From positions 3,818,328 to 3,882,327 of the forward strand of contig CM037586.1 of NCBI GenBank assembly GCA_021018995.1: a stretch of 64,000 bases of DNA, written 5' to 3'. A program made the translations under genes and the position numbers. Shown in pieces: positions 4,298 through 61,000 of this stretch (position 1 is its first letter; each line of letters opens with the position of its first letter). The stretch is from Chloranthus sessilifolius. Lineage: Eukaryota; Streptophyta; Magnoliopsida; Chloranthales; Chloranthaceae. The notes beneath the pieces are model-generated. The model saw nothing but the letters and a program-made list of their open reading frames with translations, did no database searches and was not told where the DNA came from.

Positions 4298-5405
4298 TGA
4301 CACAGGACGATACCCTAAACTACGTGAATGCAATGATTAATTGATTGCCGAAATTGGATTGAATTAAATTAAACAATAAGCCCTAAAATATAGCGAATAC
4401 CTTAGGCTTTCGTAGTATTTCATTGGAGGATCGCGTATGATTCGAGCAGGGTCCAGTCCAGGCGTTAGATCCGTTAGGTTGCAGCGCGAATCGATTCTAG
4501 AGATAGAACTCTAGGTGTCCATATTAGGGCGCTCACAATTCAAGGAAGGAATCACGGGTTTTCTGGGAATTTTGATGCGAGTTGGCTTAATGGCTAACGC
4601 GAGGATAATGATAGTTGATCAATCAATTTTAGGTAAAGGCTGGAATGGATGGTTGTGGGATTTTCAAAAGGAAGATGGTTGAGTTAGGGTTATGGGATCA
4701 ACACAAGCAGAGAAAATAAGAAATAGATAGATAGAAGATAGATTTTGCAGGCTTTGCACCCTTGACTTCACACCAAACCCTTCTCACGAAGAAGATTCAC
4801 TCTCCGTATAGGCTCATCTCAAGCACACAAGCAAAAGCTCTTTTCATTAATTATCAACTAATTACATTGTTTACCATAAGGACTTTATATAGGAGTCCTC
4901 TCAAACGAAAATAAAACCCTAAAACAAATATTAAAAGGCAAGTATGCCCCTAAAAATTAAGTTCGAAATTAGAAAAAAAAAAAAAAAACCCAAAATAGAA
5001 ACTGCACGATTTCAATCGAATGAAAGTGAAACTCGATCGATCGAAATTGAAACGAAATTGAAATTCGATCAATCGAATTTGAAACTCGATCGATCGAAAC
5101 ACATATACCAATATATAGCCGCAGGAATTCGATCGATCGAATTAAGGTCGATTGATCGAAATGGATTTCGATCGATCGAGTATATGATTTGATCGATCGA
5201 AATATGCCACTCCATAACTTAGTGTTTTCCTCTCGCTGCTGTTCGATCGATCGATTATATAATTCGATCGATCGAATTTTGCAGTTCCCTCTAAATCGTA
5301 AATCCTCTTCTTTGTGTCGGGTTCTGATTTCCATTCCGCTTCTTCCGACATCGGTACACGCGAAAAGGTCCATATCCGATGACGACGATGTCGGCGTCCC
5401 CGTCA
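4298..5405 (-). repeat. Solo LTR of a related chromovirus, reversed, TSD agtag
   Basis: Starts (reading minus from 5405) TGACGGGGACGCCGACATCG and ends (at 4298) in GTAGTTTAGGG...TGTCA, matching the ends of the Chromo-D LTR. It is 1108 bp and flanked by an exact 5-bp duplication, agtag at 4293-4297 and 5406-5410. It split gag from protease of Chromo-A and so is younger than that element. It carries its own palindrome array (5033-5276) at the place where the other LTRs carry theirs. Confidence 0.93.
5033..5276. repeat. Palindrome array CG-ATCGAT-CG in the solo LTR
   Basis: Repeated copies of cgatcgatcg and one-base variants (cgatcaatcg, cgattgatcg), separated by about 10-12 bp of AT-rich sequence such as aaattgaaac. 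Spacing between clean neighbouring units is near 21 bp. It sits in the 5' third of the LTR (LTR orientation), downstream of the short segment that resembles the pol C terminus. Confidence 0.9.
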
Positions 5406-5410
5406 AGTAG

Positions 5411-9100: not shown

Positions 9101-9952
9101 GCATCAGGCGACGGACGGACGTATATTCAACATGAACGTTCAGATTATAGGCCCCTCACTGTTTTAGAGAGGCGGACGTCCGTAGTGCCCTACGGACGTC
9201 CGTGGTTCTGTGTCTGTAGGTCACGGGCGTCTGTGGACGTCGTGTCGCCAGCGACGGAAGTTTCCTGTTTTTGCGAAAATTACTTTTTTTAGTGTTTTAT
9301 TATTATTAGGAATTATTTCAATTTTTAATTATTGGTAGCCTACATAAAAATGCCTGTAAAGACAATTTAATTAGTTATTGAATATTTTGAATGCTTTATG
9401 CTTGAATATTCCTCTTCCTGAGATGGGTTGGTGTGAGACCAAGAGAGTGATTCTCAAAGCTATCTTTTTATCTTTTCTATTATCTATCTCTGTTTTCTTT
9501 TAATCTTTTACCTTATTGATCTAAGATTTCTAAATCTCAATCTATTGATTTCTTGATCCCAAACCCTCACCCTTTCTGGAACCCTAAAGCAAACAGAGCT
9601 AAAACCCTTTTCTAAACCATAAACCTAAACTAAACCATAAGCCTATTACAAAACCATAAAGTTATTTCCACAGCCTTAGGTCGAGCCTGTGAACCTACAT
9701 CGGATCGAAGACGAATGCCCAACCCTGGAAAAGTCAGAGTTCTATCTCTAGGCCCGTTCTCGCCTCAAATCTAATAGTAGTCGCGCATCGGACTGGACCC
9801 TAACTGGAGTTCGCGTGAGCTGCTCACCTAAATTCTAAAACCCTAAGGTATTTAAGATAATTTTAAGATTAAGTTTGCTTTAATCTTTCTAAATTTCGAC
9901 AAATCCGCATAAAATCATCATTCACGCATTTTAGGGTTACCGTCTAGCGTCA
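8971..9952 (+). repeat. 3' LTR of Chromo-A
   Basis: 982 bp, TGACGGGGAC...TAGCGTCA. The start is set by homology to Chromo-D, whose LTR start is proven by a TSD, and by the purine run aggggaat immediately before it. The first ~130 bp continue the pol reading frame. A pair of CGGACGTCCG palindromes 20 bp apart lies at 9172-9201. The following five bases are tccac; the partner copy on the left is lost with the 5' LTR end. Confidence 0.9.
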
Positions 9953-11610: not shown

Positions 11611-11649
11611 ATTATTAACTTGCAATTCATGCTAATATATGGAAGCCAA

Positions 11650-12612: not shown

Positions 12613-13465
12613 TGATGGGGAACGGCAAGATCGAACAGCAGAGAGAGCGAACACTTAAAGTCGCGCACGCGAGCTACAAAGATGACTTTAAAGTCGCACG
12701 ATCGATCACTTAAGGTCGCGCGAGTGATGATAATTCTCGCTCGAGCGAGCTACGGCACGGCTTCAGACGGAAATTTATGCGAAATTTCCTTTTTTGTGTT
12801 TTATTAGTATTAAAACTCTTTTATTTCGAACTTAATTATTGGTGGCCTATATGTAGAGGCTTGTAAAGACTTTTAGTTAGTTGATTGATTATTTGAATAC
12901 TTTTATGCTTGAGTAATCTTTGTCTGAGATGAGTTTGGTGTGAGGCCAAGGGAGTGATTCCCAAAAGCCATTGCTATCTTCTCTATTTTATTTGCTACTT
13001 TCGATCTGTGTTTGCTTTCTAAACCATAGCCTAATTTCTTCCTTGTGATCCTCAAAACCCTAAGCCTTTTTTGAAACCCTAAATCACACAAAGCCAATAC
13101 CCGTTCCAAACCATAAACCGATCCAAAAACCATAAGCCGATCCGAAAACCATAAGCCTATTGCAAACCGCAAATCCCTTTCACAACCCAACTTGGAATCC
13201 ATGAATCTACATCGAACCGAAGACGAGTGCCTAAGCCTGGAAAAAGCTAGAGTTATATCTCTAGGCCGATCTCGCCTCGACTCGAAAAGTACTTGCGCAT
13301 CTGACTGGACCCTACCTGGATCTCGTGTGATCTACCCATCTGAATTCTGCTAACCCTAAAGGTATCAAAGATAATTTTGTGATTAAACTTCATTTAACTT
13401 ATTTAATTTCGATAAAATCTGCATAAAAATCATATTCTGCATTTTATGGTCATCGTACTGCGTCA
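12613..13465 (+). repeat. Solo LTR of a chromovirus in the Copia-B leader, TSD ctatt
   Basis: 853 bp, tgatggggaacgg to catcgtactgcgtca, flanked by ctatt at 12608-12612 and 13466-13470. The 3' two thirds align with the Chromo-A and Chromo-D LTRs (attattggtggcc, gaggcttgtaaagac, tgtgaggccaag, ggtcatcgtactgcgtca). Left by LTR-LTR recombination. Its variable region (12660-12745) carries a different palindrome set, best seen as ctcgctcgagcgag at 12735-12748. Confidence 0.92.
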
Positions 13466-17610: not shown

Positions 17611-18585
17611 TGATAGGGACATCGACGTTGTAAATATCGGATATAGACCGTTTCGAGTGTACCGACGTCGGAAGAAGCGGAACGGAAATTAGAACCAGGC
17701 GTAAAGGAAAAAAAATATTGTGAATAGTGCTATAAACAGTGTCATGGACGTTCGTGAACAGTGTCACGAACATCCGTAATGAACAGTGACGGACGTCCGT
17801 GAAAAGTGACGGACGTCCGTGATTTTGAGCCTTCACTCTTTTTTTTGGGACGGACGTCGTGACCGGATTTTCAAATTTTTTTGTTTTTATTGCGAAAAGT
17901 TACCTTTTAGTCTTTTATTTCGTTTAGAACTCTATTATTTCGAATTATTATTGGTGGCCTATATATGTAGAGGCTTGTAAAGACTTTTAATTAGTTTTTG
18001 ATGAATGAAAAGAGCCTTTTGCTTCCTTACTTGACATGAGCATCTTCAAAGAGTGAATCTTCGTTTCCTGAGAAGGGTTTGGTGTGAAGCCAAGGGTTTG
18101 AAGCCCAAAATCTATCCTCTATCTATCTCTTTATTTTTATTTTCTTTCTCTACTTTGTGTGATCCCATAAACCTTAAATTCAGCCGTCACCTTTTCCAAA
18201 TCCCTAAAACCATAAATCCTAACCCCATCGGAACCATTGATTCGAACTCATCTCACAAATCCTTATTTCAACCATTAAATCTCTAAACACCCGATCCCAT
18301 AAACCATAGAAGAACTTGAGATCCCACCATTGAATCACGAGTAAGTGCCCTAATCTGGAAAACCTAGAGTTCTACCTCTAGGACCGATCTGCACCGCAAC
18401 TCTAACAGATCTAGCGCAAAGAGTGGACCCTTTCCTGAACCTGGACGTGATCTTTCATATGGAAAACAATGGAGCCCTAAGGTAACCGCATTATTTTCAG
18501 GTTTATTGTTCAAGTTAATTTAAATCAATTTCGGCAAGTAATTAATTCATTGCATTCACGTAGTTTAGGGTTTTGTCCTGCGTCA
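17611..18585 (+). repeat. 5' LTR of Chromo-D
   Basis: 975 bp, tgatagggacatcg to ttttgtcctgcgtca. Its first ~95 bp are a copy of the pol 3' coding end. A CGGACGTCCG array lies at 17740-17860; it has more units than the 3' LTR but lacks a ~28-bp piece (ccgtagtgcactac...) present at 22717-22744. Confidence 0.95.
17740..17860. repeat. Palindrome array CG-GACGTC-CG, 5' LTR of Chromo-D
   Basis: Perfect cggacgtccg units at about 17791 and 17811, 20 bp apart, with tgaaaagtga between them, plus imperfect units (gacgttcgtg, acgaacatccg). The related array in the 3' LTR is at 22638-22750. Confidence 0.88.
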
Positions 18586-18589
18586 GTTT

Positions 18590-18602
18590 TGGTATCAAAG
18601 TC
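18590..18602 (+). promoter_or_regulatory. Chromo-D primer binding site
   Basis: tggtatcaaagtc, four bases after the 5' LTR, initiator tRNA-Met type with one mismatch in the core. Confidence 0.85.
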
Positions 18603-22400: not shown

Positions 22401-22595
22401 TGGTTAACTGAAGATGAGGTGCGACGCCTGGACCCCGACATGCTTGATCGCTATCACGACGCCGCTTCATCGGTGATAAAGCCTTTTTGGCCCGGGAGAA
22501 TTGACGGGGACGCCGACATTGTAGACATCGGATACAGACCGTTTCAAGTGTACCGACGTCAGAAGAAGCGGAACGGAAATCAGAATCAGGCGTAA
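19451..22595 (+). pseudogene. pol: Chromo-D pol: RT, RNase H, integrase, chromodomain (protease lost)
   Basis: The RT begins near 19640 ([18 protein letters not shown]), with stops at 19816-19818 (TAG), 19890 (TAG) and 20058 (TGA). The 20100-21182 frame is open: [23 protein letters not shown], then RNase H ([33 protein letters not shown]). A TAG at 21183-21185 precedes the integrase frame 21240-22595 (451 residues): [38 protein letters not shown]. The C-terminal chromodomain is YLIKWLGKLDSENTWL. The last ~30 residues (GDADIVDIGYRPFQVYRR...) are encoded within the 3' LTR, past the purine tract cgggagaat (22493-22501). This is the best preserved integrase in the window. Confidence 0.92.
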
Positions 22596-23472
22596 AAGAG
22601 GAAAAAAAAATTTGTGAAAAGTGATATGAACAGTGTCACGGACATCCATATCCATGATGAACAGTGACGGACGTTCGTGATTTTGAGCCTTCACTGTTTT
22701 TTTTGGGACAGACGTCCGTAGTGCACTACGAACGGCCGTGGACGTCGTGACCGAATTTTCAAATTTTTTTATTTTTGTTGCGAAAAGTTACCTTTTAGTC
22801 TTTTATTTCGTTTAGAACTCTATTATTTCGAATTATTATTGGTGGCCTATATATATAGAGACTTGTAAAGATTTTTAATTAGTTTTTAATGAATGAAATG
22901 AGCCTTTTGCTTCCTTGCTTGAAATGAGCATCTTCGGAGAGTGAATCTTCGTTTCCCGAGAAGGGTTTGGTGTGAAGCCAAGGGTGTGAAGCCCAAAATC
23001 TATCCTCCATCTATCTCTTTATTTTTATTTTCTTTCTCTACTTTGTGTGATCCCATAAACCTTAAATCTAGCCGTCACCTTTTCTAAATCCCTAAAACCA
23101 AAAATCCTAACCCCATCGGAACCATTGATCGAACTCATCTCACAAATCCCTATTTCAACCATTAAATCTCCAAACACCCGATCACATAAACCATAGAAGA
23201 ACTTGAGATCCCACCATTGAATCACGAGTAAGCGCCCTAATCTGGAAAACCTACAGTTCTACCTCTATGACCGATCTGCACCGCAACTCTAACGGATCTA
23301 GTGCAAAGACTGGACCCTTTCCTGAACCCGGACGTGATCTTTCGTATGGAAAACGATGGAGCCCTAAGGTAACCGCATTGTTTTCAGATTTATTGTTCAA
23401 GTTAATTTAAATCAATTTCGGCAAGTAATTAATTCATCGCATTCACGTAGTTTAAGGTTTTGTCCTGCGTCA
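22502..23472 (+). repeat. 3' LTR of Chromo-D
   Basis: 971 bp, tgacggggacgcc to ttttgtcctgcgtca. The pol stop (TAA, 22593-22595) lies 91-94 bp inside it. Palindrome region 22638-22750. Confidence 0.95.
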
Positions 23473-24110
23473 ATATGCTAATGTTATAGGTACCTAATGT
23501 ACACTATGACTGTATAATCATGAAATTGCATATGCAGTCGGGAAACATAGCCAATACACTAATACCTCTAGTGATGAGCATTGGATTGCGATTCCAAAGG
23601 TTCTTAAATACATAAAAAAGGGGCTACGAACTATGGTCTACATTTTGGTAGATACCTTGTTGTTTTAAAAAAGTATAGTGATACTGATTGGAACTCTTAT
23701 ATTTGATGAATCTGAAACTAGAAGTAGCTACATTTACACTAGCGATTGGGGAACAATTTCGTAGGAAACTAAGAAACAAACAATTCTGTCAAACATTACC
23801 ATAGAGTCAAAACTGATTGCTTGAGCCTTGGCAGGAGAAACCGAGTGACCTCAAATTATTGTTTGATTTCCTTTTGGATTAAGCATGTTCCTTTGGTTAA
23901 ACTTAACAGTGATTGCAATACAGCTATTCGTCGAGCAAACAATAATCAGCATAATTGTAAGTTAGACAAATACGTTGTAAACATGTATGTTTGAGAGATC
24001 ACCAGAGAATTTGACTGACCCCTTCGAAGAGTCTTGCAAAAGAAAAAATTTGAAACACATTGAAGGGTTGAGACTTAATCCAATAGAAAATTAACTTACA
24101 AGTAATGTCA
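23473..24110 (+). pseudogene. pol: Copia-A RT end and RNase H
   Basis: Continues Copia-A after Chromo-D. Visible blocks across frames are IAYAVGKHSQYTNTSSDEHW, IPKVLKYIKKG, TNYGLHFGRY and, near 23998-24090, SPENLTDPFEESCKRKNLKH and GLRLNP, the typical copia C terminus (ENLADPLTKGL...GMGLKP). Heavily frameshifted. No copia 3' LTR is recognised after it. Confidence 0.82.
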
Positions 24111-27082: not shown

Positions 27083-27275
27083 GTAATCGATATCGATCTT
27101 AGATGTAATCGATATCGATCTTATATGTAATCGTTAACGATTACATATTGAGTCGCTATCGATTATATGTAGAGTCGCTATCGATTACATTTAGAGTCGA
27201 TAACGATTATATATGTATGTAATTCGACTATATAAATTGTGGATGACGACTCTATAACAAATCGATATCGACTCT
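27083..27275. repeat. MULE-K palindrome array 1 (TCG-N4-CGA)
   Basis: Successive units atcgatatcgat, atcgatatcgat, atcgttaacgat, gtcgctatcgat, gtcgctatcgat, gtcgataacgat start exactly 22 bp apart; spacers are AT-rich (tacatttaga-like). It lies between the left TIR and the first ORF, where a promoter is expected. Confidence 0.93.
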
Positions 27276-27548
27276 CTATGAATATAATTAATACCCATCA
27301 TATGAATTAATTTCCCTATAGTTATTACCCTCGATGCCATAATAAATCATACGAGGTTTTATATTTATCTCAGCCGACGTTCAATTTATTGCCAACTACC
27401 CTTTTGTAAAACCATTATGACAAGTTAGGTTGGAAGAATGAGAAAATTTAATACAACGATTCGTATTCCACAATCTAGGAGCTTTAAATACAGGTTTAGT
27501 TCGTCCTTAACAAACCACCTATCATCCCTACCAGCCCATATTTTTTCA

Positions 27549-27851
27549 ATGTCAGACGACGAAGAAAAAACCTTCTATAACCCAATCAAGTTCGAGCCTG
27601 TATGGGAGGACCCACCACCACTACCAGAACCAGATCCTTTGCAGTTCTTGTGGGACGAGTACGATGAAGTAATGGAGATTTTGGCGAAGGAAGAAAAGAA
27701 GAAGAGGAAGGAAGAAAAGAAGAAGAGGAAGGAAGAAAAGAAAAAGAAGAAGGAAGAAAAGAAAAAGAAACTTAAGACGGAACCACCCGCCTCTCCACCC
27801 ATCCACCACCTGCTCTTCATTCATCTTCCTAAATTTTCTTTTCATTTTTAA
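27549..27851 (+). CDS. Lysine-rich N-terminal ORF of the MULE-K accessory gene (probable exon)
   Basis: ATG at 27549 gives MSDDEEKTFYNPIKFEPVWE, a proline-rich patch, then a run of KKRKEE repeats (27690-27775) and PPASPPIHH. 100 residues, no known domain. It may be exon 1 of the DUF1985/Ulp1 gene that begins at 28488, or a separate small protein. The lysine-rich block looks like a nuclear localisation signal or nucleic-acid binding tail. The segment after it is partly duplicated at 28130-28330. Confidence 0.5.
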   Translation: MSDDEEKTFYNPIKFEPVWEDPPPLPEPDPLQFLWDEYDEVMEILAKEEKKKRKEEKKKRKEEKKKKKEEKKKKLKTEPPASPPIHHLLFIHLPKFSFHF

Positions 27852-27929
27852 TTATAAGTGAAAATTTTTGAATGTAATTGAAAAATTTTGCAAGTAAATG
27901 AAACTTTTTGATGCAATGGCGACTTCATG

Positions 27930-28410
27930 AAATTTTTTGAGTCAGTAAATTAAATATTTTCTATATAAATAAGGGAAATTTACCTGACAGGTAAATTAAA
28001 CATTTTGAGATCATTGTAGTCTTATATTGAATTGATGACGATTTCATAAGTAATCGATATCGATTACATTTAGAGTCGGTATCGATTACATATAGGGTCG
28101 ATATCGATTATATATGTAATCGATGTAGGTAAAGAAGAAGGAAGAAAAGAAAAAGAACATAAAAAAGAAAAAGAAACTTAAGAGTCAGTAAATTAAGTAA
28201 TTTCTATATAAATAAATATTTTGAGGTCATTGCGAATTTATATTGAGTCGATGGCGATTTCATAGGTAATCGATATCGATTACATCTAGACTGGATATCG
28301 ATTACATATAGAATCGGTATCGATTATATATAGACTCGATATCGATTATATATAGAGTCGGTATCGATTACATATGTAATCGATAACGACTCTATATGTA
28401 ATCGATACAG
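27930..28410. repeat. Direct duplication with palindrome array 2 and a TIR-like insert
   Basis: The block gaggaagaaaagaaaaag...cttaag / agtcagtaaattaa / tctatataaataa / ttatattga / gatttcat..gtaatcgatatcgat occurs at about 27750-28100 and again at 28135-28300. The first copy contains, at 27971-27995, gggaaatttacctgacagg followed by taaatt, which is the outer TIR sequence of the element joined head to head. Array 2 units (atcgatatcgattacat and variants) fill 28051-28125 and 28266-28410. Confidence 0.8.
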
Positions 28411-29340
28411 GTTTTATATATACATTTCATCAACATTTTTAACTATCCTTGTTAGTATGGGGCTCAGTCCTTTCTTTTTTATTACAGTTTATTTCAAAAG
28501 GCTGTCAAGATGGTTGTACACCGAGCTGTTGCCAAGTGTTCGCCCAGTGCCATTTCGAATCTCTACGAAAATGCTACCCCAGCTCGGAAGAAGTTATCGA
28601 GAGATTCAGTTTTTGGTGAAATATTTCAAATGCCTAAGGGTGTGGGATTTCTTTCCGATGTGGTGAATGCAATGTTGACATTTTGGGTTGAAAAAAATCA
28701 CTTCTGAATTGGGAAGACTGATGTCTATCTTCGAAAGATAGACATTGCATTGATACTGGGCCTTGCCGTAGTTGGCCCAGAAAAGTATACCCCATCCGTT
28801 AAACCATCGGAAGAACAAACCATTCGATACAAATACTTTCGTGGAACGCCTCCTGAAAAAATTCTCCGGTCTCATATAGATGCTGCAATTTTGAGAGCGG
28901 AAAGTGATGAAGACTTCTTAAAGTTGTCCCTTCTGTTTGTGCTGTGCATATTTCTCTTCCCCGGGTCCCATTATCAGATTTCAGAAGACCACATCGACCT
29001 CATCGATGATGTGGAGACCTTTAACCGAACTCTGTGGGGTCTGCACGTCTATCAAGACTTGATCGAGTATATAATTAAGAGCGCGGCGAATAGAAAAACC
29101 GCCGAGATGGATAAAGCCCTGAAGACGTACAACACATATGGATGCATATGTGTACTTCAATGGTGGGCTTATGAGATCCTGCCCGATATATCGCCATCCC
29201 AGCTAGGCCTCAAGGACCCTTTCCCACTGAAATGGTGGACGATGATCAAGGATCAAAGGTTACACTCGCGGGCAGATGTTGGACAGCAAGGTATGAGGTC
29301 TATTGCCAATTCAAAAAAAAGCAACTTACCGATTCATTCT

Positions 29341-29560
29341 AGAATCGATAACGATTCATTACAGAATCGATACCGATTCATTTAAGAATCGATAACGATT
29401 CCTTAACAATCGATAGCGATTCCGTACAGAGTCGATAACGACTTACTAAGTAGTCGATAACGATTCATTAAATAATCGATAGCGATTTTTTAACGAATCG
29501 ATAACGATTTATTAAATAGTTTGCACATTCTTTATATAATCGAGAGTGATTTATTATATA
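29341..29560. repeat. MULE-K palindrome array 3
   Basis: In the intron after the DUF1985 exon. Units atcgataacgatt, atcgataccgatt, atcgatagcgatt at 21-22 bp spacing with spacers like cattacaga and catttaaga. Confidence 0.93.
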
Positions 29561-30234
29561 TAACGATCATTTTATTCTGTTGTTTACATGTTTCATTTTC
29601 TTTCAAAAGGTTCGCGCTCCCCTCGTGCCTCAGGGCTTTGAATTAGAGATACCCGTGTTAAGAGAATATCTACGGGTTCAAAAGGAGGTTGGGGGGAAGA
29701 GGAAAGAACCGGTCAAGAAAGCTGTGGAAGAGATGCGGCCGAAGAAGAAAAGAAATTACATTCCGATCGAGAATATTGGAGAGGAAGAATGGGATGACGC
29801 ATCGACGTCTGAAGAAGAACCCCTCTCAAAAAAGGGCCCCATCCATGTGGGAGAGGGTCGGCCAAGAACTAGGGGGGCCACCAAGGAGAGCCTGACAACG
29901 AAAGATAGCCCAGTTGAACCGTCCACCTCCAATGATTCTTTGTTGAGGAGGGTCGATCATTTGACGCTGGATAACTTGAAGCTCACCCAAAGAGTGAGCG
30001 ATTTGGAGGGAGAGAATAAGGCCCTGACTAAACGTTGCGCTTCTTTAGAGAAACTATACAACTCCTTCAATGAGAGGCTGAATTCAAGGGATGCGGAGTG
30101 GCAGAAGTTAAATCACTACAACTATTTGGTCAGAAAGGGCCAGACGGATATAAAAGAACTCCTTGAAAATTTATTGGAGGCGAGACCTAAGGTATGTGTT
30201 GAAATCTGATTTTAGATGTTCAGTTTTGTTAACA

Positions 30235-31435: not shown

Positions 31436-31481
31436 TATTTAACTCTAACTGCATATTTTAATCTAATTGCATTGGTTTCAG

Positions 31482-35569: not shown

Positions 35570-35639
35570 CGTCTGTTTAAGAATGAGAAGGAAGGGTCAT
35601 AAGACTGATGAAACAAAAAAGAAAAGACGACTATAAATC

Positions 35640-35915
35640 TTAGTCGATTGCAAATACAATCGTCATCGACTCCATATAGAATCGATGCCGATTGCCAATA
35701 CAATCGGCATCGACTCCATATAGAATCGATATCGATTGTATACACAATCGATATCGATTGCAAATACAATCGTCATCGACTCTATATAGAGTCGATATCG
35801 ATTGTATACACAATTGGCATCGACTCTATATGGAGTCGATGCCGATTGTATTTGCAATCGATATCGACTCTATATGGAGTCGATGACGATTGTATTTGCA
35901 ATCGATATATATTTT
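35640..35915. repeat. MULE-K palindrome array 7
   Basis: Between the mudrA start and the right TIR, i.e. in the transposase promoter. Units alternate among atcgtcatcgact, atcgatgccgatt, atcgatatcgatt, about 22 bp apart. The open reading frames here on both strands are a by-product of the repeat. Confidence 0.93.
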
Positions 35916-48569: not shown

Positions 48570-50942
48570 TGTGACAACCCGGGTTTCGACGCCCCGAAAC
48601 TCACGCCGTCGACACGACCCTCAAGACCATGTCCCGTAAATTCCCGTAGAACACTCGGTACATCCATACACAATGCATAGCAAAGCGTACAAGTCATGAT
48701 ATAAAAAGAGATCACAAAAAGAGATCTCCACAACTATCATATAACCAACTATAAAAATAACTCATTAGATGGTTTTAGTCTCATGCCAATTGTATGAGCA
48801 AAAGAACCGAATCGAACCATCGGTGACATCCAAAGGTCGCCCTCTGATGGTTGGCCAAAAGAATATAACATTTAAATATTACATCACTTTCAAGTTTAAA
48901 TGGCCGAACGTACCAAGCCTTACAAAACAATATCAAAGTGGCGCAACAGAGTTCACTAGAAGAAATCCTCCGGAGGAGGCTCGTTCTCCTTAAGAGGCAC
49001 GTAGTCAGAATCCAATCTATCTTGGTCCTCCGCTACTGAGTCCTCACCTGCACCTGTGACATATAGTGACAAGAGTGAGCTACATCATAGCTCAATAAGG
49101 AAAACAAATATAACATGTGTACTTTCAACATCAACATATCTTTCATGATATTGCACATTTCATATCTTACTGGAAAGAAACACATGATTTAAATACATTT
49201 TTAAATTGACGAAAACTGATAAAAGATGCACATTTCAGAATCGCACTTATCATTATTCAAAAACACTTTTCTTAATTCACACTCTTAAAACATTCACTTA
49301 AATAATTCCTCCATCAGCTATAGTGTCGAGCTTTGATGGAATACCCACCATCGTCGTTCAATTGAATCATTTTCACATAGATACAAGCCATCGGGAATGG
49401 AGTGACTTGTCGGACGAAATATTACTGCACATGGTAATCGATCGAAGACCAGATATCCCGTCGGACCGAAGCACAAGTTGTACTGATATCCCACCATACC
49501 GGTCGCGGATATCCCGCCGCATCGGTCACGATTATACCGCCACGTCGGTCAGGTATTCAAATAAAATCTTAAACCAAAGTGCTAAAACTACATATAATTT
49601 TTCACCGTGAAATTGTGATATATAATAGTTTCAAAGTTCTTGAAGTTTACACCTACACATATGTTCACATCAACTGGATGTCACATTCACATACACATAT
49701 CTGAGTTTCTTGTTGAGAGCACAAGCATACTTATCAAAATTCACAACACCCACATGATTTGTCTTAATGATCACTCACACATGTCGAATTGTACATATTC
49801 AAAAGCATGGTAAATTCATACTAAAATGTATTCGTAAATCACATACACATCACATCACTACCCACATATCTGCTGAAATCAAATACACATGTTAAATAGT
49901 TTTCCTTACCTACACGCTAAGCCCTTAGGCTTTCATAGTTCAAGCTTGCTTCACATCCACTCAAAGCTTGGGTCACACCTAACATACACAATTTCATGAT
50001 CGGAACGTTAGAATTGACGTAAAACAGTGAGATACACCATATTCCCAAAGTCCCCAAAGCCAAAACAGAAGATAGTTTTAACTGTCAGGAATCGACCGGT
50101 CGAATCCCAAATTGACCGGTCGGTTTCCCTCAGGAAACCAGACCCTCCTTTCACACCCAAACCGACCAGTTGATTCCCAAAACTGACCTGTCGGATCTCC
50201 AAAATCGACTGGTCGGTTTTGGTTCGACCGGTTGAGTCCCCAAAACTATAATTTTTAACATTCCTGTTTCGTGGAAATCGACCGGTCGTAATCGCTCTTT
50301 GGTTCTACAATTCCACTCATAATGAAATCGACCGGTCGATTTCCAATTTGACCGGTCGGTTCACGCCAGTTCTCACCCAGCTAGGGTTTTTTATCACAAT
50401 TCTATTTTTTGTCAATTTTCTCTTTTTCCCTCTAATTTTCTTCACTCAACCACACATTTACTCTATAGACACACTTCACAAAATTCACGTAAGATCTTAC
50501 CTTTTATTAAATCGTTTTCTTCGATCTTAGCCTTCACACTCTAGCTAGGGTTTAGCAGCTCGGAGTTTCGGATCACACACAGTTACCGATCCTCGAATGC
50601 CGCACAACTTACGATCTTTCACTCATTCTTGCGCATTCAATTCTATTCTCCTCTCTCTCTTCTAAATTACTTTTCAATAACTCCTCACTCACCAACCTAG
50701 AATAGAAAATTATTTTCTCTTAGGTTTTTCTTTCTTATAACAGTCCTAGTCTTAGGTGTTAAGCACCAACATTCACCCTGGTTATGCCTAACCTACATAA
50801 GACTTGCACATAGCTTTTCTCACACTCAACTCATGACCTATAGGGCTTATCAAACATGTCATAGGGTCAGGCACATGATCTGACGGCATGCACACCGAAG
50901 TCACTGTTTCAAAGGTCAAATTTTTTTTTTCAGGACGTTACA
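48570..50942 (-). repeat. 3' LTR of Tekay-E
   Basis: 2373 bp, minus-strand start tgtaacgtcctg (50942) and end gggttgtcaca (48570). Preceded by a purine tract (gaggggagaa, 50943-50952). It shares with the Tekay-F LTR a GC-rich block with repeated gatatcccgcc/accggt phrases (49440-49555; inverse at 60010-60100). Confidence 0.9.
50091..50361. repeat. Palindrome array CG-ACCGGT-CG in the Tekay-E LTR
   Basis: Units cgaccggtcg and variants (cgaccagttg, gacctgtcgg, cgactggtcg) separated by ~10-12 bp such as aatcccaaatt; neighbouring units are 19-22 bp apart. Confidence 0.92.
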
Positions 50943-51444: not shown

Positions 51445-52912
51445 TCAACAAAATAACCAAAAGAACATTTTAGCACAAAAACCAACCAAAATCTCATAAT
51501 GTAACCTCCCATCATGCCTCTGCATCCCCCGGTGGTGCGTCAGAAGGTCCCGCCTCATCTGTAAGCACCACACCTGCAAGATCATCTTCGGAACACCGCC
51601 CAACGAAGACGCTCCAGTGGAGTAGTACCACGGATTAGGTACAACTGCACGAGTGTCCGCGAGGCATGTCATGTAATCGTGGGGGTACGTATACTGCATC
51701 CACTGCGTAAAGACACCCTCGTGATGGTCCATCCTACGATGTAGTAGTCGGTTGCTCTCCTCAACTTGAGTCATACGAGCGAGAATATCGTATAAAATTG
51801 TGGAATCCAGCTGTGGTGGGGGAGGCATCTGATAGTGGGCTTGTTGTTGGACTAGAGGTTCAGGTATTGGGGGCATTGGTTGCTCTGGCTGGGGAACTTG
51901 TTCTCCTTGTCCTTGCTTAGCCTCGAGTGGAGGAGGTGGTGCTTGTTCCACAGCTGGAGGTAGGACTTTCTTCAATTGGTTATAGGTTCGGTTCCAATCC
52001 GCAAAGGAATACGACTCGACATGATCATTCAATCTCAGTTCGTCAGAAGAAACTTTATATTCGCCCTTGTTTGCATACTCCTCAAACATAGAGGAGATAA
52101 AACGAGCATAGGGTATACACTCTTTAGGTTTCACTCCCCCTCAGTAACTTCCCATGTATATAGTTTATACCTTCAAACACCATCTTGGGTGCGTTGAACC
52201 AACATCCCCTGAATGCTGCATATAAGGCTTGTTGCACCTCCCCTACCCTCTCAGTATTGTGTCGCATAGGGTAGAGGTTACACTTGATTATGGTGTCCAA
52301 CATCCATAAATGGGGAGGTAAATCAATCCTCCGAATGGCCTTACTAGAACCGTGTCATCCCGGGGTCATCTCGTTCCTAATTTCCAAATAATCCACTTCC
52401 GATGCAAAAGGACGCAAAAGTTCAATGTCGTCTGAATACTCGTCATAACACTCTAGGGCTTTGAATGCGTGATCCCATGTGAATCGATAATCGCGACCAT
52501 CTACTTTGGTCTCAATCACTGAAGATGCACTAGTCGATTTGAGGTTTTGATAGAACAATCGCACCAACCTCGGATAATAATAATCATGTAGCGGGTTTAA
52601 GATATTAGTCAAACCAGCCTTCTAAATATAACCTCGAGCCCATACGGTATTTCCTTGTACATCCGGGTCCTCAAACGAGGCCCGATCAATTCTATACTCG
52701 TCTTTAATCTTTTTGCTTGCCCACCATGCATTGGGCTGGTCTAAAGGTGGTGGTGGTGGTGAAGGCTCACGCGAAGACGATGCAGGCCGTGGGGCTATCT
52801 GTGGTGCCGACATTTGTGATGCTGCAGGTGGTGGTGGTCCTGACGCACTAGGGCGTCGAACAAGTCACTTTGAAGCTGAAGGTTTCGAAGCTTGCCTCAT
52901 CTTGGGTGGCAT
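51445..52912 (-). pseudogene. Extra ORF of Tekay-E, 'putative plant transposon protein' domain
   Basis: ATG at 52912 (MPPKMRQASKPSASK), TGA soon after, then a proline-rich stretch (52813-52622: PSPPPPPLDQPNAWWASKK), NILNPLHDYYYPRLVRLFYQ, ETKVDGRDYRFTWDHAFKAL, and, in another frame, a helical middle part. The end (52134-51445) is KPKECIPYARFISSMFEEYA, a Pro/Gln-rich linker and RMTQVEESNRLLHRRMDHHE, a short coiled coil. This matches the plant domain known as putative plant transposon protein (PF20167 as I recall), found in or beside many LTR elements. Role unknown. It is in sense orientation downstream of pol, with its own upstream palindrome array, which suggests separate expression. Three or more breaks. 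Confidence 0.7.
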
Positions 52913-53166: not shown

Positions 53167-53343
53167 ATCGACCGGTCGAATTTAAAAATTGGCCAGTCGA
53201 ACTTATAAATTGACTGGTCGATTTTGTTTCGACCAGTCAATTTTTCAAACTATTTTATTTACTTTTTAAGATTGTTCTGTTTGTGAGAATCGATCGGTCG
53301 ATTCCATATTCGACCGGTCAATTTAAATTTTTGACCGGTCGGT
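53167..53343. repeat. Second CG-ACCGGT-CG array, upstream of the extra ORF
   Basis: cgaccggtcg, ggccagtcg, gactggtcg, cgaccagtc, cgatcggtcg, cgaccggtc, gaccggtcgg, at ~20-bp steps, between the pol stop and the extra ORF start. Same motif as in the LTR of this element, and not that of other elements. Confidence 0.92.
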
Positions 53344-53533: not shown

Positions 53534-54940
53534 TCAACTCTCTTGGAACAATTGAGGGTATTGAGCTTTAACTTCCGCCTCACGCTTCCAAGTAGCCTCT
53601 TCAACAGGATGATGTCCCCATTTGACAAGTACTAAAGGGATACGTTTAGTACGTAAGACTTGTTCCTTTTTATCGAGAATTTGCACTAGTTCCTCTATCA
53701 TCGTCATATCTTCATACATCTCGATTGGCTGATCCTCCAAGATATGCATAGGATCTTTAACATATTTTCGGAGCATGGATACATGAAATATGTTATGCAC
53801 TCGATCAAATAGAGGAGGTAACCCAATCCTATAGGCAACCTCACCAACTCTATCCAAAACCTCAAAGGGTCCAAAATATTGTGGGTTTAGTTTTCCTCTC
53901 TTTCCAAATCGCATGACGCCCTTCATGGGTGATATTTTTATGAACACATGATCGCCAACCTGAAAATCAACACTTATCCTCTTCATATTAGCGTAGCTCT
54001 TTTGCCTGCTCTCAGCTGACTTGATTCTTTTTCTTATCATACGAACGATATCGGCATTGTCTTCAAGTACTTCTAGACCCAATATGAACTTTTCGCCTGT
54101 CTCTTTCCAATTGACCGGTGATCTACATCGCAGTTCATAAAATGCTTCATACGGTGTCATACCGATACTCGTTTGAAAGCTGTTATTATATGCAAATTCG
54201 ACCACTGGTAGGTGCTGATCCCATGATCCTTGAAAACTGAGCATACATGCTCTGAGCATATATTCTATTACTTGGTTCACCCGTTTTGTTTGTCCGTTCG
54301 TCTACAGGTAGAATGCCGAACTGAATTCTAATCACGTACCCATCCCTTCTTAGAACTTTTGTCAAAATTTTGAAGTGTAAAGAGGGTCACGATCAGAAAT
54401 GATACTAATTGGAATGCCGTGCAGTCGAACAATTTCCTTCATATATAACTCTGTGAGTCTTCTAGCTATATACGTAGTGTTGTATGATAAAAAGTGGGCT
54501 GACTTGGTCAGTCTATCGACAATTACCCAAATGGCATTGTGTCTCTTTGCAGTCCGGGATAACCCCACTATGAAGTCCATTGAAATTGACTCCCACTTCC
54601 ACTCTAGTATAGGTAGAGGTTGCAACAACCCTGCAGAATGTCTATGATCTACTTTTACCTGTTGACACACTAAGCACTTAGAAACATACTTGGCTACATC
54701 CTGTTTCAACCCTCTCCACCAGTAATTCTTTCTCATATCCTGATATATCTTCATGCTACCAGGGTGTATAACATACATCGACCTATGAGCTTCGTCTAGG
54801 ATAGTCTGCCACAGATCAATATCAACTGGTATGCATAGACGTCCCTTGAACAATAAGGAATCATCTTCCCTCACTGAGAAATCAGGTCTAGTGTCGTCAA
54901 TCACACCTTGTTTGATTTTCACTAACTCTGGGTCTTTCAT
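53534..54940 (-). pseudogene. pol: Tekay-E integrase and chromodomain
   Basis: 54940-54362: zinc part (HRSMYVIHPGSMKIYQDMRK...CLVCQQVKV) and core start (WKWESISMDFIVGL, IVDRLTKSAHFL, IISDRDPLYTSKF). A broken stretch 54361-54281 contains the catalytic Glu region. 54280-53534: QSSFQGSWDQHLPVVEFAYN, YEAFYELRCRSPVNW, the GPFEVLDRVGEVAYRIGLP motif, and at the end VPLVLVKWGHHPVEEATWK, the chromodomain. Chromodomains of this group recognise heterochromatin marks and bias insertion. Confidence 0.9.
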
Positions 54941-56909
54941 CTACAACTCTTGAATGTACTCAAAGATTGTCGGTCTAACTATAATGTTGGCCAAAAAGGC
55001 TCCTGAAGCTCGCACCTCGATGTTTGTGTCATACAAAGAAAGATCCTTTGACAATTTCCTTCTGTGAAATCCTGTGATAAGGCTAGAAAATAAAGTTGAA
55101 TTCTTTTTGCTCAAGGCATCTGCTACCAGATTAGCCTTGCCGGGTGGTACTGAATGGAACAATCGTAGTCCTTGAGAAATTTCATCCATTTGCGCTGCCT
55201 CATATTAAGCTCTTTCTGCGTAAACAAATATTTGCGGCTTTTATGATATGTAAATATCTCGAAGGTCTTGCCGTATAAGTAGTGCCTCCATATCTTTAGT
55301 GTGAATATGACTACTGTAAGCTCCAAATCATGGGTTGGATAATTATTCTCGTGATCTTTCAGTTGTCTCGACCCATAAGCAATAATCTTCTTATTCTGGT
55401 TGAGCACACATCCTAACCCATTGTGTGAAGCGTCACTGTAAACAACATATCTTCCACTGCCTGAAGGAATAGCTAATACCGGGGCTGAAGTCAGTCGCTT
55501 CTTGAGTTCTTGAAAACTCCTCTTGCATTCTTCAGTCCATTTAAACCTCACATCCTTCTTGGTAAGCCTCGTGAGTGGTCTAGAGAGCTTCAAAAATCCC
55601 TTTACAACCATCCTATAATACCCAGCCAAACCGAGGAACCTTCGAATCTCTGTTACTATTTTCAGTTGCTCCCATCCCACTACGGCTTCGATCTTCGCTG
55701 GATCCACTGTAACTCCATCCTTTGAAACTACATGTCCAAAAAACTGACCTTCGCTGGTGGTCACGAAAGATTTGTATAACAATCTTCAAATGTTCTTCAT
55801 GCTCTTTCTTGGTCTTAGAGTAGATGAGAATGTCATCTATGAACACTACTACACACGTATCAAGGTATCTTTTAAACACTCGATTCATTAAATCCATAAA
55901 TGACGTTGGGGCATTGGTCAATCCGAACGGCATCACTAAAAACTCATAGTGTCCATATCTCATTTTGAACGCCGTCTTTGATATATCCTCTACCTTAATT
56001 CTCAACTGAGGATATCCTGATCTTAGATCGATCTTGGAGAAGAATCTAGCACCTTATAAATGACCGAACAGATCATCAATCCTTGGCAAAGGGTATCAAT
56101 TCTTAATAGTCACCTTGTTCAGCTGACGATAGTCAATACACAATCTCATCGACTTGTCCTTCTTCTTCACAAACAAGACTGGTGCTCCCCAAGGAGACAC
56201 ACTAGGTCTTACAAAACCATTATCTAGGAGTTCTTGTAATTTCTCTTTCAATTCTTTCAACTCAGCAGGAGCCATTCGATAAGGCGCTTTAGACACAAGC
56301 TCCGTACCCGGTGCTAAGTCAATGGCGAACTCCACTTCTCGTTTCGGTGGTAAACTTGGCAACTCATATGGAAAAACGTCCTCGAATTCACATGCAACCG
56401 GAATCTTCGCTAGAACGTTCCTCTCTTCCTTGTCTTCCTTTAGAAACGCTAGGTATCCATGACAACCTTTCTTTATTAAACATCGGCTCTGATTGCGGAG
56501 ATCAGCAGTACAACGATCGATCGCTTTCAAGAAAATTGAAATGATCTCCTCGTATTTGGCCTGAAGGTAATCATCTTTCTCTGACAATCAACACTGACAT
56601 GGTGCTTAGATAACCAATCCATACCAAGGATTATGCCAAATCCTTGCATGTCTAATAGGATTAACTCTGCCACTAATTCATGAACATCATAATCCCTTAC
56701 GACGACAATGACTGACCGACAGACCATATCAATGCTAATTGAATTCCCCGTCTAAACTGACACTGTAAAAATGAAATCCAAGGCCTCGGGAATGACCTTC
56801 ACTTTCTTCGCGAGCTACAAAGTAATAAATGAGTGGGTAAACCCTGGGTCTATCAACACTCTTGCTTCATAACTCAAGTCACTTCCCTTCCCATATATTT
56901 GTAAAGTAC
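54941..56909 (-). pseudogene. pol: Tekay-E protease (end), RT and RNase H
   Basis: The protease region 56909-56530 starts just after the intron-like segment (LQIYGKGSD...EARVLIDPG) and has LLDMQGFGIILGMDWLS. RT 56500-55700: [45 protein letters not shown] then stop, [30 protein letters not shown] frameshift near 55780 leads to [34 protein letters not shown]. RNase H 55450-55123: [35 protein letters not shown]. At least three breaks. Confidence 0.9.
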
Positions 56910-57061
56910 CTATATAGCACATGCCTCTTAGCAATCTACTCGTGCATCAAGTCAAAACATGTAAAGGACTAGATTAAACAATTTCCTATATAGATACACC
57001 TTCTCTATTTAAAATTAAAAAATTCAAATCAATGAATCAATTATTTTAAAGAAAATTTCAC
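56910..57061 (-). other. Candidate intron between gag and protease, Tekay-E
   Basis: 152 bp, AT-rich with stops. Minus-strand donor ataag/gtgaaa at 57061 and acceptor tatatag/gtac at 56910. Removing it joins the gag tail to LQIYGKGSD in the protease frame at the same codon as in Tekay-F. The flanks are conserved between the two elements; the interior is less so. Confidence 0.65.
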
Positions 57062-58353
57062 CTTATATAATGTGATTATTGTTCTGATCATCCTCGGTGG
57101 TTACTGCATAAGCTTGCCCTTGAACAATTGACTTCTTTGTTTGCATTTTTTTGGTCACAAGAGCAGAAGCCGTCCTCCCTTGCCGACTCGTGGGAACTGA
57201 AGTCGTCCCTTCTTTCCACATCTATGGGCAATCTCTTATTATGTGCCTCATTCTCCTACACTTGAAGCACCCTCTCGTGCCTCGCCTACAGTCCAACGTC
57301 TTGTGAGACTTGCCACACCAGGCACAAGTCTCAACCGGTGTAGAAGATGCAACCCTAGAAAAACCCTGGATAACTGATGCTCCAGTGGTGGTCATAGGGT
57401 TCTCATAGCAAATCGACCTCACCGTAATAGGCATAGGTGGTCTAGTGACATTTGTCTGCACCGGCCTAGGGAAACTGCTCGGAGTCGGTTGCTTCGGAGT
57501 AAGTGCTATGAATCTCGACTTTTTTTTTCACCAGTTTGTAGTTGCTTCCCTTTCCTTGCTGTTGTCTTTTGCGGTACATCTCTTCTACATCTTCCTCTAT
57601 ACTGAGGGCCTTGCTCATGACTGTCCCGTAAGTTTCCAATTCTCTAACCGTCATCTTCCCTTGCACCAGTTGAAGGAATTGAACCTCCATTTGATTCCGC
57701 ACTACTTTAGGGAAGTATTGCTTGTTAAACTCCTCTATAAACTCATCCCAGGTCCATAAAACTCCTAGCGTCTCTTGTGCCCTAGTCCTTGAAACTAATT
57801 TCCACCACGGGCTCGCCTCGCCGTCCAACATGAAAGCAGCCCATCGGACTCTCTCATCCTCAGTGCATGTAAGCACACTGAATATTTTCTCCATCTCATT
57901 AAGCCAATTTTTTGCTTCCATTGGCTCAGCTTGCCCTAAAAAAGTTGGAGGACGCATCCTCCGAAACTCCGTAAAAACTGAGGGCGTCGGTGGTGGTGGT
58001 GGTGTAGGAGTATGCACTTGTTGTTTATGGTTGGCATTAGTGGTCATCAACACCGTTTGTAAGGCTGTTTGTTGGGCCATAGTGGCTGCCATGGCCTCCA
58101 ACATTTGCATCATTCTCCGTCTCTCTTCTCTTTCCTTGTTCCTTTTCGAGTTCCCTTCTGCATTTCTTTCCGTGTTCCTCATTTTAGGACCACTTGTCTC
58201 CGGAATAATGGGGTTTCTCAACTCCGGATTACTTGTCTCCGGAATGACCCTATCTCTTAACAGAGTTCGATTTGTACCGGTGGGAATCTCATCTAGACTT
58301 CTTAAATTTCTTCTATGGCCGCCTCTTGGTCGACACCTTCCCCTAGTAGACAT
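57062..58353 (-). pseudogene. gag: Tekay-E gag
   Basis: Start ATG 58353 (MSTRGRCRPRGGHRRN). MLEAMAATMAQQTAL and FRRMRPPTFLGQAEPMEAKN, then LTCTEDERVRWAAFMLDGEA and WDEFIEEFNKQYFPKVVRNQ are the Tekay capsid block. A frameshift near 57460 precedes two zinc knuckles, CAWCGKSHKTLDC and CFKCRRMRHIIRDC (57222-57345). Stops occur near 57221 and 57064, the last a CAA to TAA change relative to Tekay-F. Confidence 0.9.
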
Positions 58354-58420
58354 TGACGCTCTGCAACATGAAACCAAAGTCTCATTAGCAGAAGGTTCTT
58401 ATATTCTGACGAAATCAAAA

Positions 58421-61000
58421 TGTAATATCCCGAAAAATTGACCATTTGACTTTGACCTCGAGATCCGTGCCCGATTGGTCATAGGTTTGACCAAGTGATG
58501 GTCAAACATTGAGTTCATGAAGTTATGTACTAATGTGAGATTAGGGTAGCCTAAGTGTAGAGTACTGTGTTAAGTTGCAGTCACATACACCTATCTCTGG
58601 TGTATGTGTTTAACACACAAGGCCAAGAGAGGATATAAGGGTTCTAATAACCCTAGTTTCTTTTGCTTTGGTTGTCGAAGAGAGAGTTAAGAGGAGACAG
58701 AGAGGAGTAAAGAGGAGTTATTGAGGAAGAAGTGAATGCAAATTAAAGGACTAATTAGAGTATTCATTGACGGATTCAAAGCGATTGGGATCGTGAAGCA
58801 AATGATGGAACCCTAGCCATCAAACCCAACAAATCAATCCCTTAAGGGGATTATTGAGGTGAGTTTTAATTAAAGTGAATGCATATATGTAGAAAAGTTT
58901 AATTCAATCAAGTAGGGTTACATGGGTAGATTAAAGGCATAGAAAAGAAAGGAGAAAGAATTGGAAGAACAACCCGAAAGGGGGCTGAATCTGGCCAAAT
59001 CGATTAATCGAAATTGGGATTCGATTAATCAATTTTGGTCTGGAAGTTGAAAAGTCATGAAAGCCCGATTTTGATTAATCGAATTGTATTTCGATTAATC
59101 GATTTGGATTTCGATTAGTCGATTTGGAAATTGACTAATCGACTGGGTACCTCCAGTGGCTGGAGAAAAGAGACCTGGAGAAATCGACAAATCAAGTTGG
59201 GAAATTGATTAATCGATTTTGGATTTCGATTAATTGATTTAGGATCGACTAATCGATTTCAAACTTTCGACCACTCGATTTGAGAATCGACTGCTTTATG
59301 ATAGGGACTTCGATTAATCGATTTAGGATCGATTAATCGAATTTGAATCTCGATTAATCGATTTTGAGAATCGATTAATCGATTTGGGTTTCGATTAATC
59401 AATTTTGGGAATCGATTAATCGAATTGTATTTCGATTAATCGATTTTGAGAATCGATTAATCGACTTGGACAATTTTGCTTAACTTTATAATTTTTCTTT
59501 GAGATTCATGGAGGGTCTAAGACCTTCTTCATTACATCTTTAGTGATGTATTGCGTGTGTTATGATGTACCATAGGTGGTACGTGTGAAAGCGAGCACAA
59601 GGAGTCGCGTGGGACTTTGATGCTTGGACCTTCAGAGAATTGAGGTAGGGAACACCTTGAACATGTACTTTAATTTCAAGAGCATGTATATAGTGATATA
59701 ATTATCAGATTTGAAGTTGTTTTAATTATGAAAAGCTTTGTGAAAATGGGTGTGTGTGTAACACCAAGAATGTGAAAAAGGTATCAGTGTGATGCAAGTG
59801 ATTAAGATCAAGTAATCTAATAAGAATGAGACATCCCTAGGGGATGAAAAAGTAATAAAGGCATCAAGTGTGATGCGAGTATATATACATCCCAAGGATG
59901 TATATATATATGATTGAATAATTACTGTTGAGGCCTAACTGATATAAGATAGCACACTTACACGGTGAACAATTATATGTAAAGCACATGTTATTTTTGT
60001 TATTTGAGGTTTGATGGATACCCCACCGACGTGGCGGGATACCCACGACTGACGCGACAGGATATCCGTGACCGGTACGGCGGCCAATCTGTACATCAGT
60101 GCGGAGGTTTATCCATAACAGTAAGCACATCCCAGGGATGCTGAGATGAGTTTTAACCCCGCCGCCTAGTGAAAAGGGGCTTGGGTCGATTCCCAGGGAA
60201 TACTTTATAACAACTGTCTATTTAGACGACAATGAAGGGTGTCTCATCGGAGCTCGATGCTATATTGCTCGGGGATTACTTAAGTTAAAGATTTAAGTTT
60301 TGCTTTAGGCATGTTCAGTGCCATTCATGATAAATCAACAGTAAAGTAAGACATGATAATTTCCAGTAAACTTGAATGTAATTCATCAGCTTTTAAACCG
60401 TTTTCTAGCAAATGCATAGACACATCATGCTTAGAATATCATGGAATATATGTGAGTCTTAATTTATATGTTCATTGTGTTTGTTTCCTATTGAGCTAGG
60501 ATGTAGCTTACCCCTTTAGACTATACGTCGCAGGTCCATTGTTAGCAGCTGTCGAGGCTTCGGGAGACGTAGATTCGGGTGATTCGGATTACGTACCTGG
60601 AGACGAGTTGGAGCCTCCACCCGAGGACTTCTTCTAAGAGACTCTGCTGTGTACTTTGACAGAGAGTAGTTTTGAGAGCAGAATTGTACGGCTTGGTATG
60701 TCAAGCCTTTATTTTTGATAAACATGTAATTAGACTGGATAATTCTTTTGGTGAATCATCTGGGGTGATCTGTTTATCATTGATGGTTCAGGTCGGTTCT
60801 CTGTTCATGCAGTGGCATGAAAGTAGAACTGTCTTTTGCATATGCCAGTTGGGCATATTAACTATTTCCGCTTTATGAGATTTACTTTATTTATTTAATT
60901 GTGCTTGTTATACCAATGTTCCGTGCACAGTTTTGGGGCACGGTCTGGAGGATCGTGCTGATGGCACGGGTTTTGGAGTGCTGAAATTCGAGCTGTCACA
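58421..61000 (+). repeat. 5' LTR of Tekay-F
   Basis: 2580 bp, tgtaatatcccgaaaa to attcgagctgtcaca. The start abuts Tekay-E leader sequence and the end is followed by the primer site after two bases. It contains the CGATTAATCG array and a GC-rich block at 60010-60115. Confidence 0.9.
58997..59466. repeat. Palindrome array CG-ATTAAT-CG in the Tekay-F LTR
   Basis: About twenty or more units of cgattaatcg and one-base variants (cgattagtcg, cgactaatcg), with linkers such as atttggattt and aattgtattt; steps mostly 20-21 bp. The densest array in the window. Confidence 0.93.

Follow-up and report, generated by a model that had tools for sequence, protein, structure and literature searches.

Transposable elements in a 64,000-nucleotide stretch of the Chloranthus sessilifolius genome (hereafter the window; G000:C3:3818328-3882327, from an assembly of 2.17 Gb in 32 contigs) carry arrays of short palindromes, repeated at a step of about two DNA turns, whose letters differ between related elements. 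The arrays occupy the long terminal repeats (LTRs) of two families of elements, the region ahead of an additional open reading frame (ORF) in elements m and p of the second family, and a Mutator-like element (MULE) that we call MULE-K. We suggest, with a probability that we put at roughly 45%, that the arrays are promoter-proximal sites for a dimeric, sequence-specific regulator, probably encoded by the element itself, that would work like the VANC proteins of VANDAL transposons.

Palindromes of 10 bp bounded by CG occur 26 times in the window, an approximately 20-fold excess over 100 dinucleotide shuffles made in 2-kb blocks (mean 1.35, maximum 5), and eight pairs of them stand 18-24 bp apart, a spacing that occurs in none of the 100 shuffles. 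Both the density and the spacing near 21 bp that a first-pass annotation had proposed are thus above those of shuffled sequence, and the arrays read as it described them, with some corrections. The array at 22638-22750, assigned to the core GACGTC, has no unit that is perfect over 10 bp; the four that are perfect lie at 9173, 9193, 17790 and 17810. The unit is indeed a palindrome, but the block conserved by position scores is 12 bp long and not 10 (TCGATCGATCGA, TCGATTAATCGA, TCGACCGGTCGA, ACGGACGTCCGT, TTGATCGATCAA and TCAATCGATTGA), a 10-bp unit being found in MULE-K, and the linkers mostly score a few tenths of a bit per position. Bounding by CG is common but not universal, as TTGATCGATCAA and TCAATCGATTGA at loci taken from preset positions show; the former is perfect in all 11 units of the array in L023. 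In a scan of 1,539 overlapping 500-bp windows, drawn from the window and from 30 preset loci (250 kb), the best palindromic 10-mer of each was scored, AT-only and simple words being excluded. A score of at least 10 was reached in 57 windows and never in shuffles; in 51 of these the palindrome contained CpG, which is thus nearly general, the CpG class making up 453 of the 1,024 palindromic 10-mers. CpG arrays at this score are present at 7 of the 30 preset loci. TCGAAGCTTCGA is an example of a palindrome not seen among the arrays.

Short steps (18-23 bp) account for 81 of the 112 steps of twelve arrays, some of them homologous to one another, with a mean of 20.5 bp and a standard deviation of 0.97 bp, MULE-K excluded; the arrays at window 9165-9245, at window 12690-12790 and in p's 3′ LTR are not in these lists, and in L023 a weak unit was merged. 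Most LTR arrays (for example, in L017, L022 and L023) step by 20-21 bp with some wobble, unlike the 22 bp of MULE-K. Pairs of TCGA-N4-TCGA in the window and the 30 loci fall at 19-22 bp (24 pairs), 39-44 bp (16) and 60-65 bp (17), with none at 23-28 bp, and perfect 12-bp palindromes without CpG form no such comb of preferred spacings. The two-turn rule proposed at first extends to the whole genome, where 182,953 TCGA-N4-TCGA pairs lie at steps of 19-22 bp versus 1,332 at 24-27 bp, counts to which single subfamilies contribute many copies and in which N4 was not forced to be palindromic; TTGATCGATCAA pairs at steps of 19-22 bp number 25,453. Helical phasing of 30 steps over 24 bp gave R 0.46 near 10.5 bp (p 0.07) for arrays that are non-independent, and is not used as evidence here.

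Elements m and p of family II are sisters with LTRs of about 2.4-2.6 kb, the distal parts of which match at 66-72%, and in these homologous LTRs the cores differ, as had been noted, being ACCGGT in m and ATTAAT in p. The LTR of m (48570..50942, minus strand; ends approximate, placed by eye, with similarity to the LTR of p) carries a TCGACCGGTCGA array at 50091..50361 (minus), about 580 bp from the LTR start. The 5′ LTR of p (58411..61000, plus; ends approximate; 83% to L017 and 95-96% to its own 3′ LTR) carries a TCGATTAATCGA array at 58997..59466 (plus), also about 580 bp from the LTR start and 18 bp upstream of TTTATAA. The body of p continues past the window in L035 (C3:3882328-3889327), where pol is followed by an ATTAAT-core array (L035:2312-2855), a CTATATATA box 10 bp past it, an additional ORF of 399 residues (L035:3091-4287) and the 3′ LTR, which has the ATTAAT core too. 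The layout of m is the same: its gag-pol pieces (53537..58398, minus; Pfam, chromodomain 20.4 bits, below the cut-off of 25.1) are followed by a TCGACCGGTCGA array (53167..53343, minus) and a degraded additional ORF homologous to that of p (51448..52912, minus). Each of the two elements has one core at both promoters, and the tie first suggested between an array and the extra ORF is thus supported for m and p.

Five further relatives of the additional ORF were recovered by tblastn over L001-L035, in L002, L011, L014, L031 and L034. In six of the seven, namely p, m, L002, L011, L014 and L031 (in the last, 5 of 200 shuffles reach the score), the array that precedes the ORF scores above shuffles, and so it does at three of the four preset-position loci; L002 is a biased case because it was fetched by array pattern. 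When ranked among 250 preset 1-kb windows, L031, L011, m and L014 are not extreme (36, 27, 22 and 18 windows score as high), in part because the genome is full of such arrays. From 53,709 first-look candidates, 104 copies of the p-type ORF were scored (80-87% identity to p, with p itself included at 100%), and an ATTAAT array is present in all 20 of the 850-bp upstream regions fetched for 20 of them; copies of one subfamily share the array layout. For the m-type ORF, the matches listed extend to identities as low as about 51%. The ORF of p matches Transposase_32 (PF20167) at 29.7 bits, and the ORF pieces of L031, L034 and L002 at 17.1, 37.9 and 17.2 bits, all below the curated cut-off of 45. 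A large protein database, in which plants are perhaps thinly represented, yielded at E 0.001 no homologs of the additional ORF or of the PMD/DUF1985 protein of MULE-K, one search scoring only the best 8,000 word-sharing candidates, and a PDB sequence search with the additional ORF returned no match.

The palindromes are also conserved well beyond their surroundings. In an alignment of 20 upstream regions of p-type additional ORFs plus that of p (21 rows, with three reference rows), pairwise identity is 0.91-0.92 in palindrome columns, 0.76 in linkers and 0.65-0.69 downstream, with a small bias in that units were picked by likeness to the core in a reference row. Methylated CpG normally decays fastest; here, CpG identity is 0.87 within palindromes and 0.68 elsewhere. 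The best-kept positions of the 12-mer are the non-CpG positions 1, 4, 6, 8 and 9 (0.94-0.98). Perfect units number 286 of 431, and in none of the 431 was a compensatory change found between the palindrome halves. The 174 changed letters include 85 C-to-T or G-to-A changes at the two outer CpGs and 53 T-to-C or A-to-G changes at inner positions. We read this pattern as probable purifying selection while the elements multiply, followed by decay as expected of methylated DNA.

Family I offers a similar replacement of cores. The five element groups described at first reduce to two LTR families and one MULE, since ATCGAT and GACGTC occur in homologous LTRs, as do ACCGGT and ATTAAT. Element A contains a solo LTR (4298..5405, minus; target-site duplication CTACT, ends set by hand; alignment A1) that splits two regions contiguous in element B and is 72.6-73.3% identical to the LTRs of B over about 4295-4864. 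Its U3-like part carries a TCGATCGATCGA array (5033..5276, minus) 140 bp upstream of CTATATA. In B, the 5′ LTR (17611..18590, plus; target-site duplication ATATG; end approximate) has a GACGTC-core array (17740..17862, plus) 96 bp upstream of CTATATA, and the 3′ LTR (22502..23477, plus; 87.5% identical to the 5′ LTR; end approximate) has a degenerate one (22638..22750, plus). Homologous sequence flanks the array of the solo LTR and that of B on both sides though the cores differ. A ACGGACGTCCGT array lies in the right-hand LTR region of A (9172..9245, plus; LTR start not fixed), and a TCGCTCGAGCGA unit (12737..12748, plus) adjoins an LTR-like stretch, 12774-13472, that matches the LTRs of A and B. 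Partly aligning with one another, B, the solo LTR, the stretch 12774-13472 and L003 carry the cores GACGTC, ATCGAT, CTCGAG and ATCGAT, respectively. Ty3-type reverse transcriptase/RNase H, integrase and SH3/chromodomain matches are found in B, m and p, the chromodomain match of B being above the cut-off. In B, the solo LTR, L003 and p, the palindrome cluster of the LTR lies upstream of a TATA-like box. Of 12 array sites, 8 have such a box no more than 150 bp away (10 of 14 rows, the LTRs of p and B being counted once each) versus 206 of 970 background windows, for a box pattern chosen after looking, sites that are partly homologous and arrays of known orientation only.

In lineage III, the loci L004, L010, L023 and L025 share a homologous block (65-74%) 5′ of the array, and the core that follows it is ATTAAT together with ATCGAT in L004, CTCGAG in L010, TTGATCGATCAA in L023 and an interrupted TCGC...GCGA palindrome in L025. 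A second copy of the block, present in L023 and in L025, is not directly followed by an array, and in L021 the block comes without any. Different cores thus adjoin homologous LTRs or flanks in three lineages (families I and II and lineage III). The first-pass annotation had spoken of unrelated transposons, but the clearest switches of core are between related LTRs; its view that simple descent is a poor explanation stands in general, but four of the nine cores are linked by CpG transitions. An outer TCG...CGA is common to the cores ATCGAT, ATTAAT, ACCGGT, CTCGAG and CATATG and to the MULE-K motif; GACGTC, CTCGCGCGAG and CCTCGCGAGG are far from the other cores. In L016, a locus with a MuDR-like match, TCAATCGATTGA occurs at 470-654 in pairs 22 bp apart, the pairs themselves being 53-54 bp apart. 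Pairs 22 bp apart are found also at the LTR-type locus L010 (1965-2214), so that this step is not confined to MULEs. Further candidate cores are TCGCCTAGGCGA, single at L006:3996, and TCGCATATGCGA, of which two units lie 20 bp apart at L030:4947 and 4967. The locus L023, which has arrays of both TCAATCGATTGA and TTGATCGATCAA, also holds a 734-residue NB-ARC/LRR (NLR-type) open frame (L023:1783-3984).

MULE-K carries 49 units of the motif TCGNTANCGA in eight unstranded clusters (27087..35867), mostly outside the recognised coding pieces. Among its neighbour steps of at most 230 bp, 36 of 42 are exact multiples of 22, and the variable positions of the unit pair in 20 of the 49 units, the expectation being 42%. 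The coding pieces are a PMD/DUF1985 piece (28708..29382, plus; Pfam PMD 37.9 bits with a cut-off of 34.9, DUF1985 20.3 with a cut-off of 35.1), a Ulp1-type peptidase (Peptidase_C48) piece (31985..32356, plus; Pfam 44.1 bits) and MuDR-type transposase pieces (DBD_Tnp_Mut, MULE and SWIM; 32918..34631, minus). One motif cluster begins within the open frame that ends at 29385; the clusters lie mostly between coding pieces, exon borders not being fixed. In a second copy (L024:1634-2266 and 6749-7435, versus window 28708-29382 and 33897-34631), the transposase piece is 92% identical and the PMD/DUF1985 piece 66%, which recalls the fast-evolving VANC versus VANA in VANDALs. Outside MULE-K, a DUF1985 piece at window 43292-43789 scores 48.5 bits, above the Pfam cut-off.

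Comparable arrays are known. The first-pass annotation knew of no LTR elements that have them, but the available part of one study of Sireviruses, which are Ty1/copia elements, describes thirteen in which each element bears 8-32 palindromic motifs, clustered ahead of the TATA box of the LTR (Bousios et al. 2010; PMC2829016). According to the same text, nine of these, which have an ENV-like gene, carry a second cluster upstream of ENV, four that lack the gene have none, and the motif is absent from classic Ty1/copia elements. Here, too, element-specific clusters precede a TATA-like box in the LTR and, in p and m, an extra ORF. The motifs are mostly other ones, but those of Usier (GTCGGACGTCCGAC) and Tnd-1 (ACAATCGATTGT) given in that text resemble some of those found here (PMC2829016). 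In contrast, the carriers here are Ty3/gypsy elements, another type of element with an additional ORF (L002) and MULEs, and not Ty1/copia; the CGG-CCG signature is found only in the GACGTC-core arrays; cores are replaced between homologous LTRs; and the step is fixed at two turns, whereas no fixed step was noticed in the available part of PMC2829016. In VANDALs, as far as the accessible text goes, the VANC motifs are tandem, non-coding, element-specific and changing between relatives, and VANC proteins carry DUF1985 (Hosaka et al. 2017; PMC5735166). The parallel drawn earlier has support in MULE-K from its MuDR-type transposase and its PMD match; its DUF1985 match is weak, below the cut-off, and its motif clusters lie mostly outside the recognised coding pieces. 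However, the VANC21 motif in that text, YAGTATTAY, is non-palindromic, that of MULE-K is TCGNTANCGA, and the LTR elements are not VANDALs. Among additional ORFs of plant LTR elements, the available parts of two reports describe a sunflower Athila 14 ORF (487 aa) that matches PF20167 and a proline-rich sunflower Tekay ORF (402 aa) (PMC7264820; PMC11728184). The ORFs found here resemble such ORFs in being in sense between pol and the 3′ LTR and in matching PF20167, weakly in our case. The sunflower Tekay ORF, however, sits 5′ and matches no known domain, and the ORF here comes with a palindrome array of its own, plus a TATA-like box in p, whereas no link to palindromes is made in the accessible text of PMC7264820 and PMC11728184. 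In a search of the open-licence literature, we recognised no report that describes arrays of this kind in Ty3/gypsy elements and ties them to an additional ORF. New relative to the known systems are the fixed pitch, the agreement of core between LTR and additional ORF outside copia, the replacement of cores and the Ty3/gypsy and MULE carriers.

If the arrays are read by a dimeric regulator, each 12-bp palindrome would be one dimer site composed of two 6-bp half-sites, and a step of about 20-21 bp (22 in MULE-K) would place neighbouring dimers on one face of the helix, where they could bind cooperatively. In long-LTR Ty3/gypsy elements the regulator would most likely be the additional-ORF protein, the best candidate in family II because its own gene and the LTR share a core, with a different one at both places in the sister element. 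This protein could switch on, or free from silencing, its own gene as well as the LTR promoter, in a positive loop; a change in the specificity of the reader would then lead to replacement of both arrays, making regulation private to one subfamily. In MULE-K, the PMD/DUF1985-type protein is a candidate reader by analogy with VANC, and in family I the reader may be supplied in trans or come from the host. Dimer binding, the identity of the reader and activation or anti-silencing are what we infer from the arrays and their placement. Several observations weigh against an element-encoded reader of this kind. Only two elements, p and m, test the rule of a shared core, and the linkers of one p array resemble those of the other more than shuffled linkers do (0.78 vs 0.67), so that both arrays may descend from one old duplication. 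No additional ORF is seen in the family I copies, the additional ORF of L034 is preceded by no significant array (186 of 200 shuffles reach its score), and no TATA-like box lies within 150 bp of either array of m (192 bp in the LTR), of L011 or of L023. Searches of Pfam and PDB with the additional ORF gave no relative of known DNA-binding function, and a relationship to DUF1985, considered and rejected, has a probability of 0.2% by profile comparison of shallow alignments. Sharing of cores across subfamilies, which had been held to speak against element-specific arrays, is found in part, as TCGATCGATCGA is common to family I, lineage III and the array that precedes the additional ORF of L002. 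Finally, TCGATCGATCGA, TCGATTAATCGA, TTGATCGATCAA and TCAATCGATTGA differ mutually by CpG transitions alone; for TCGATCGATCGA as the hub, which was chosen afterwards, the chance that 3 of the 8 other cores fall in its set of 5 is about 5e-8 under a random draw. Methylation-driven decay may thus generate new cores, or one family of host readers may tolerate them.

Such tolerance is central to an explanation that we consider rather unlikely, in which palindromes of the TCG-N6-CGA kind are recognised by dimeric transcription factors of one host family, or by a silencing reader, and elements of many kinds acquire them as enhancers before drifting among the tolerated sites. The outer letters common to five cores and the MULE-K motif, the single network of CpG transitions joining four cores (its hub picked afterwards), the recurrence of one core in more than one lineage and the family I copies without an additional ORF all agree with a host reader; it is less easily reconciled with sister elements m and p that differ in core at both promoters together, with TTGATCGATCAA fixed in 11 of 11 units in L023 and with the remoteness of GACGTC, CTCGCGCGAG and CCTCGCGAGG from the rest.

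Explanations that need no dedicated reader fare worse. Neutral minisatellites, in which a chance palindrome is duplicated in tandem and spread by element copying, could account for the exact multiples of 22 bp that prevail in MULE-K and for the layout common to copies of one subfamily, and the repeat finder TRF lists many of the arrays as tandem repeats; yet they are improbable given that palindromes are conserved and linkers poorly so, that steps in the LTR arrays wobble by 1-2 bp, that CpG palindromes dominate (51 of the 57 windows) and that homologous places bear arrays of different core. We attach a similarly low probability to patches rich in CpG that would keep nucleosomes off or mark the borders of methylation, the other letters being unimportant. 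Nearly all cores do contain CpG, and the available text on Sireviruses has their motif clusters defining the borders of CpG islands (PMC2829016), but the exact pitch and the non-CpG positions that are best conserved argue otherwise. Least probable of all, in our view, are hairpins of RNA or DNA between neighbouring units, with a structural role or as triggers of small RNAs. Neighbouring self-complementary 12-mers with loops of 8-10 nt could pair, and the palindromes of Sirevirus LTRs, for which such a role has been argued, are small-RNA hotspots in the accessible parts of PMC5311732 and PMC10760457; however, pairing within units is contradicted by the want of compensatory changes in 431 units and by variable positions that pair in MULE-K about as often as expected.

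Returning to an element-encoded dimeric regulator, it is conceivable, although we regard it as doubtful, that class I and class II transposons of plants share one design, in which a private dimeric protein, encoded or recruited, would read its own two-turn palindrome arrays and lift the silencing of its own subfamily. In LTR elements that protein would be the product of the additional ORF, in MULEs one of the PMD/DUF1985 type, and CpG decay together with evolution of the reader would replace the core repeatedly. Sequence-specific self-activation or anti-silencing would then reach beyond VANDAL DNA transposons into the abundant LTR elements, and one could read in the arrays how host methylation and the regulators of the elements have contended. 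The array in the LTR and ahead of the promoter of the ORF itself provides a specific candidate target, testable by DNA binding.

Two other features of the window lie apart from the arrays. Minus-strand pieces resembling a long interspersed nuclear element, with reverse transcriptase and endonuclease matches, are found at window 199-1990, to the left of element A, and a 113-bp unit is tandemly duplicated at window 47906-48121.

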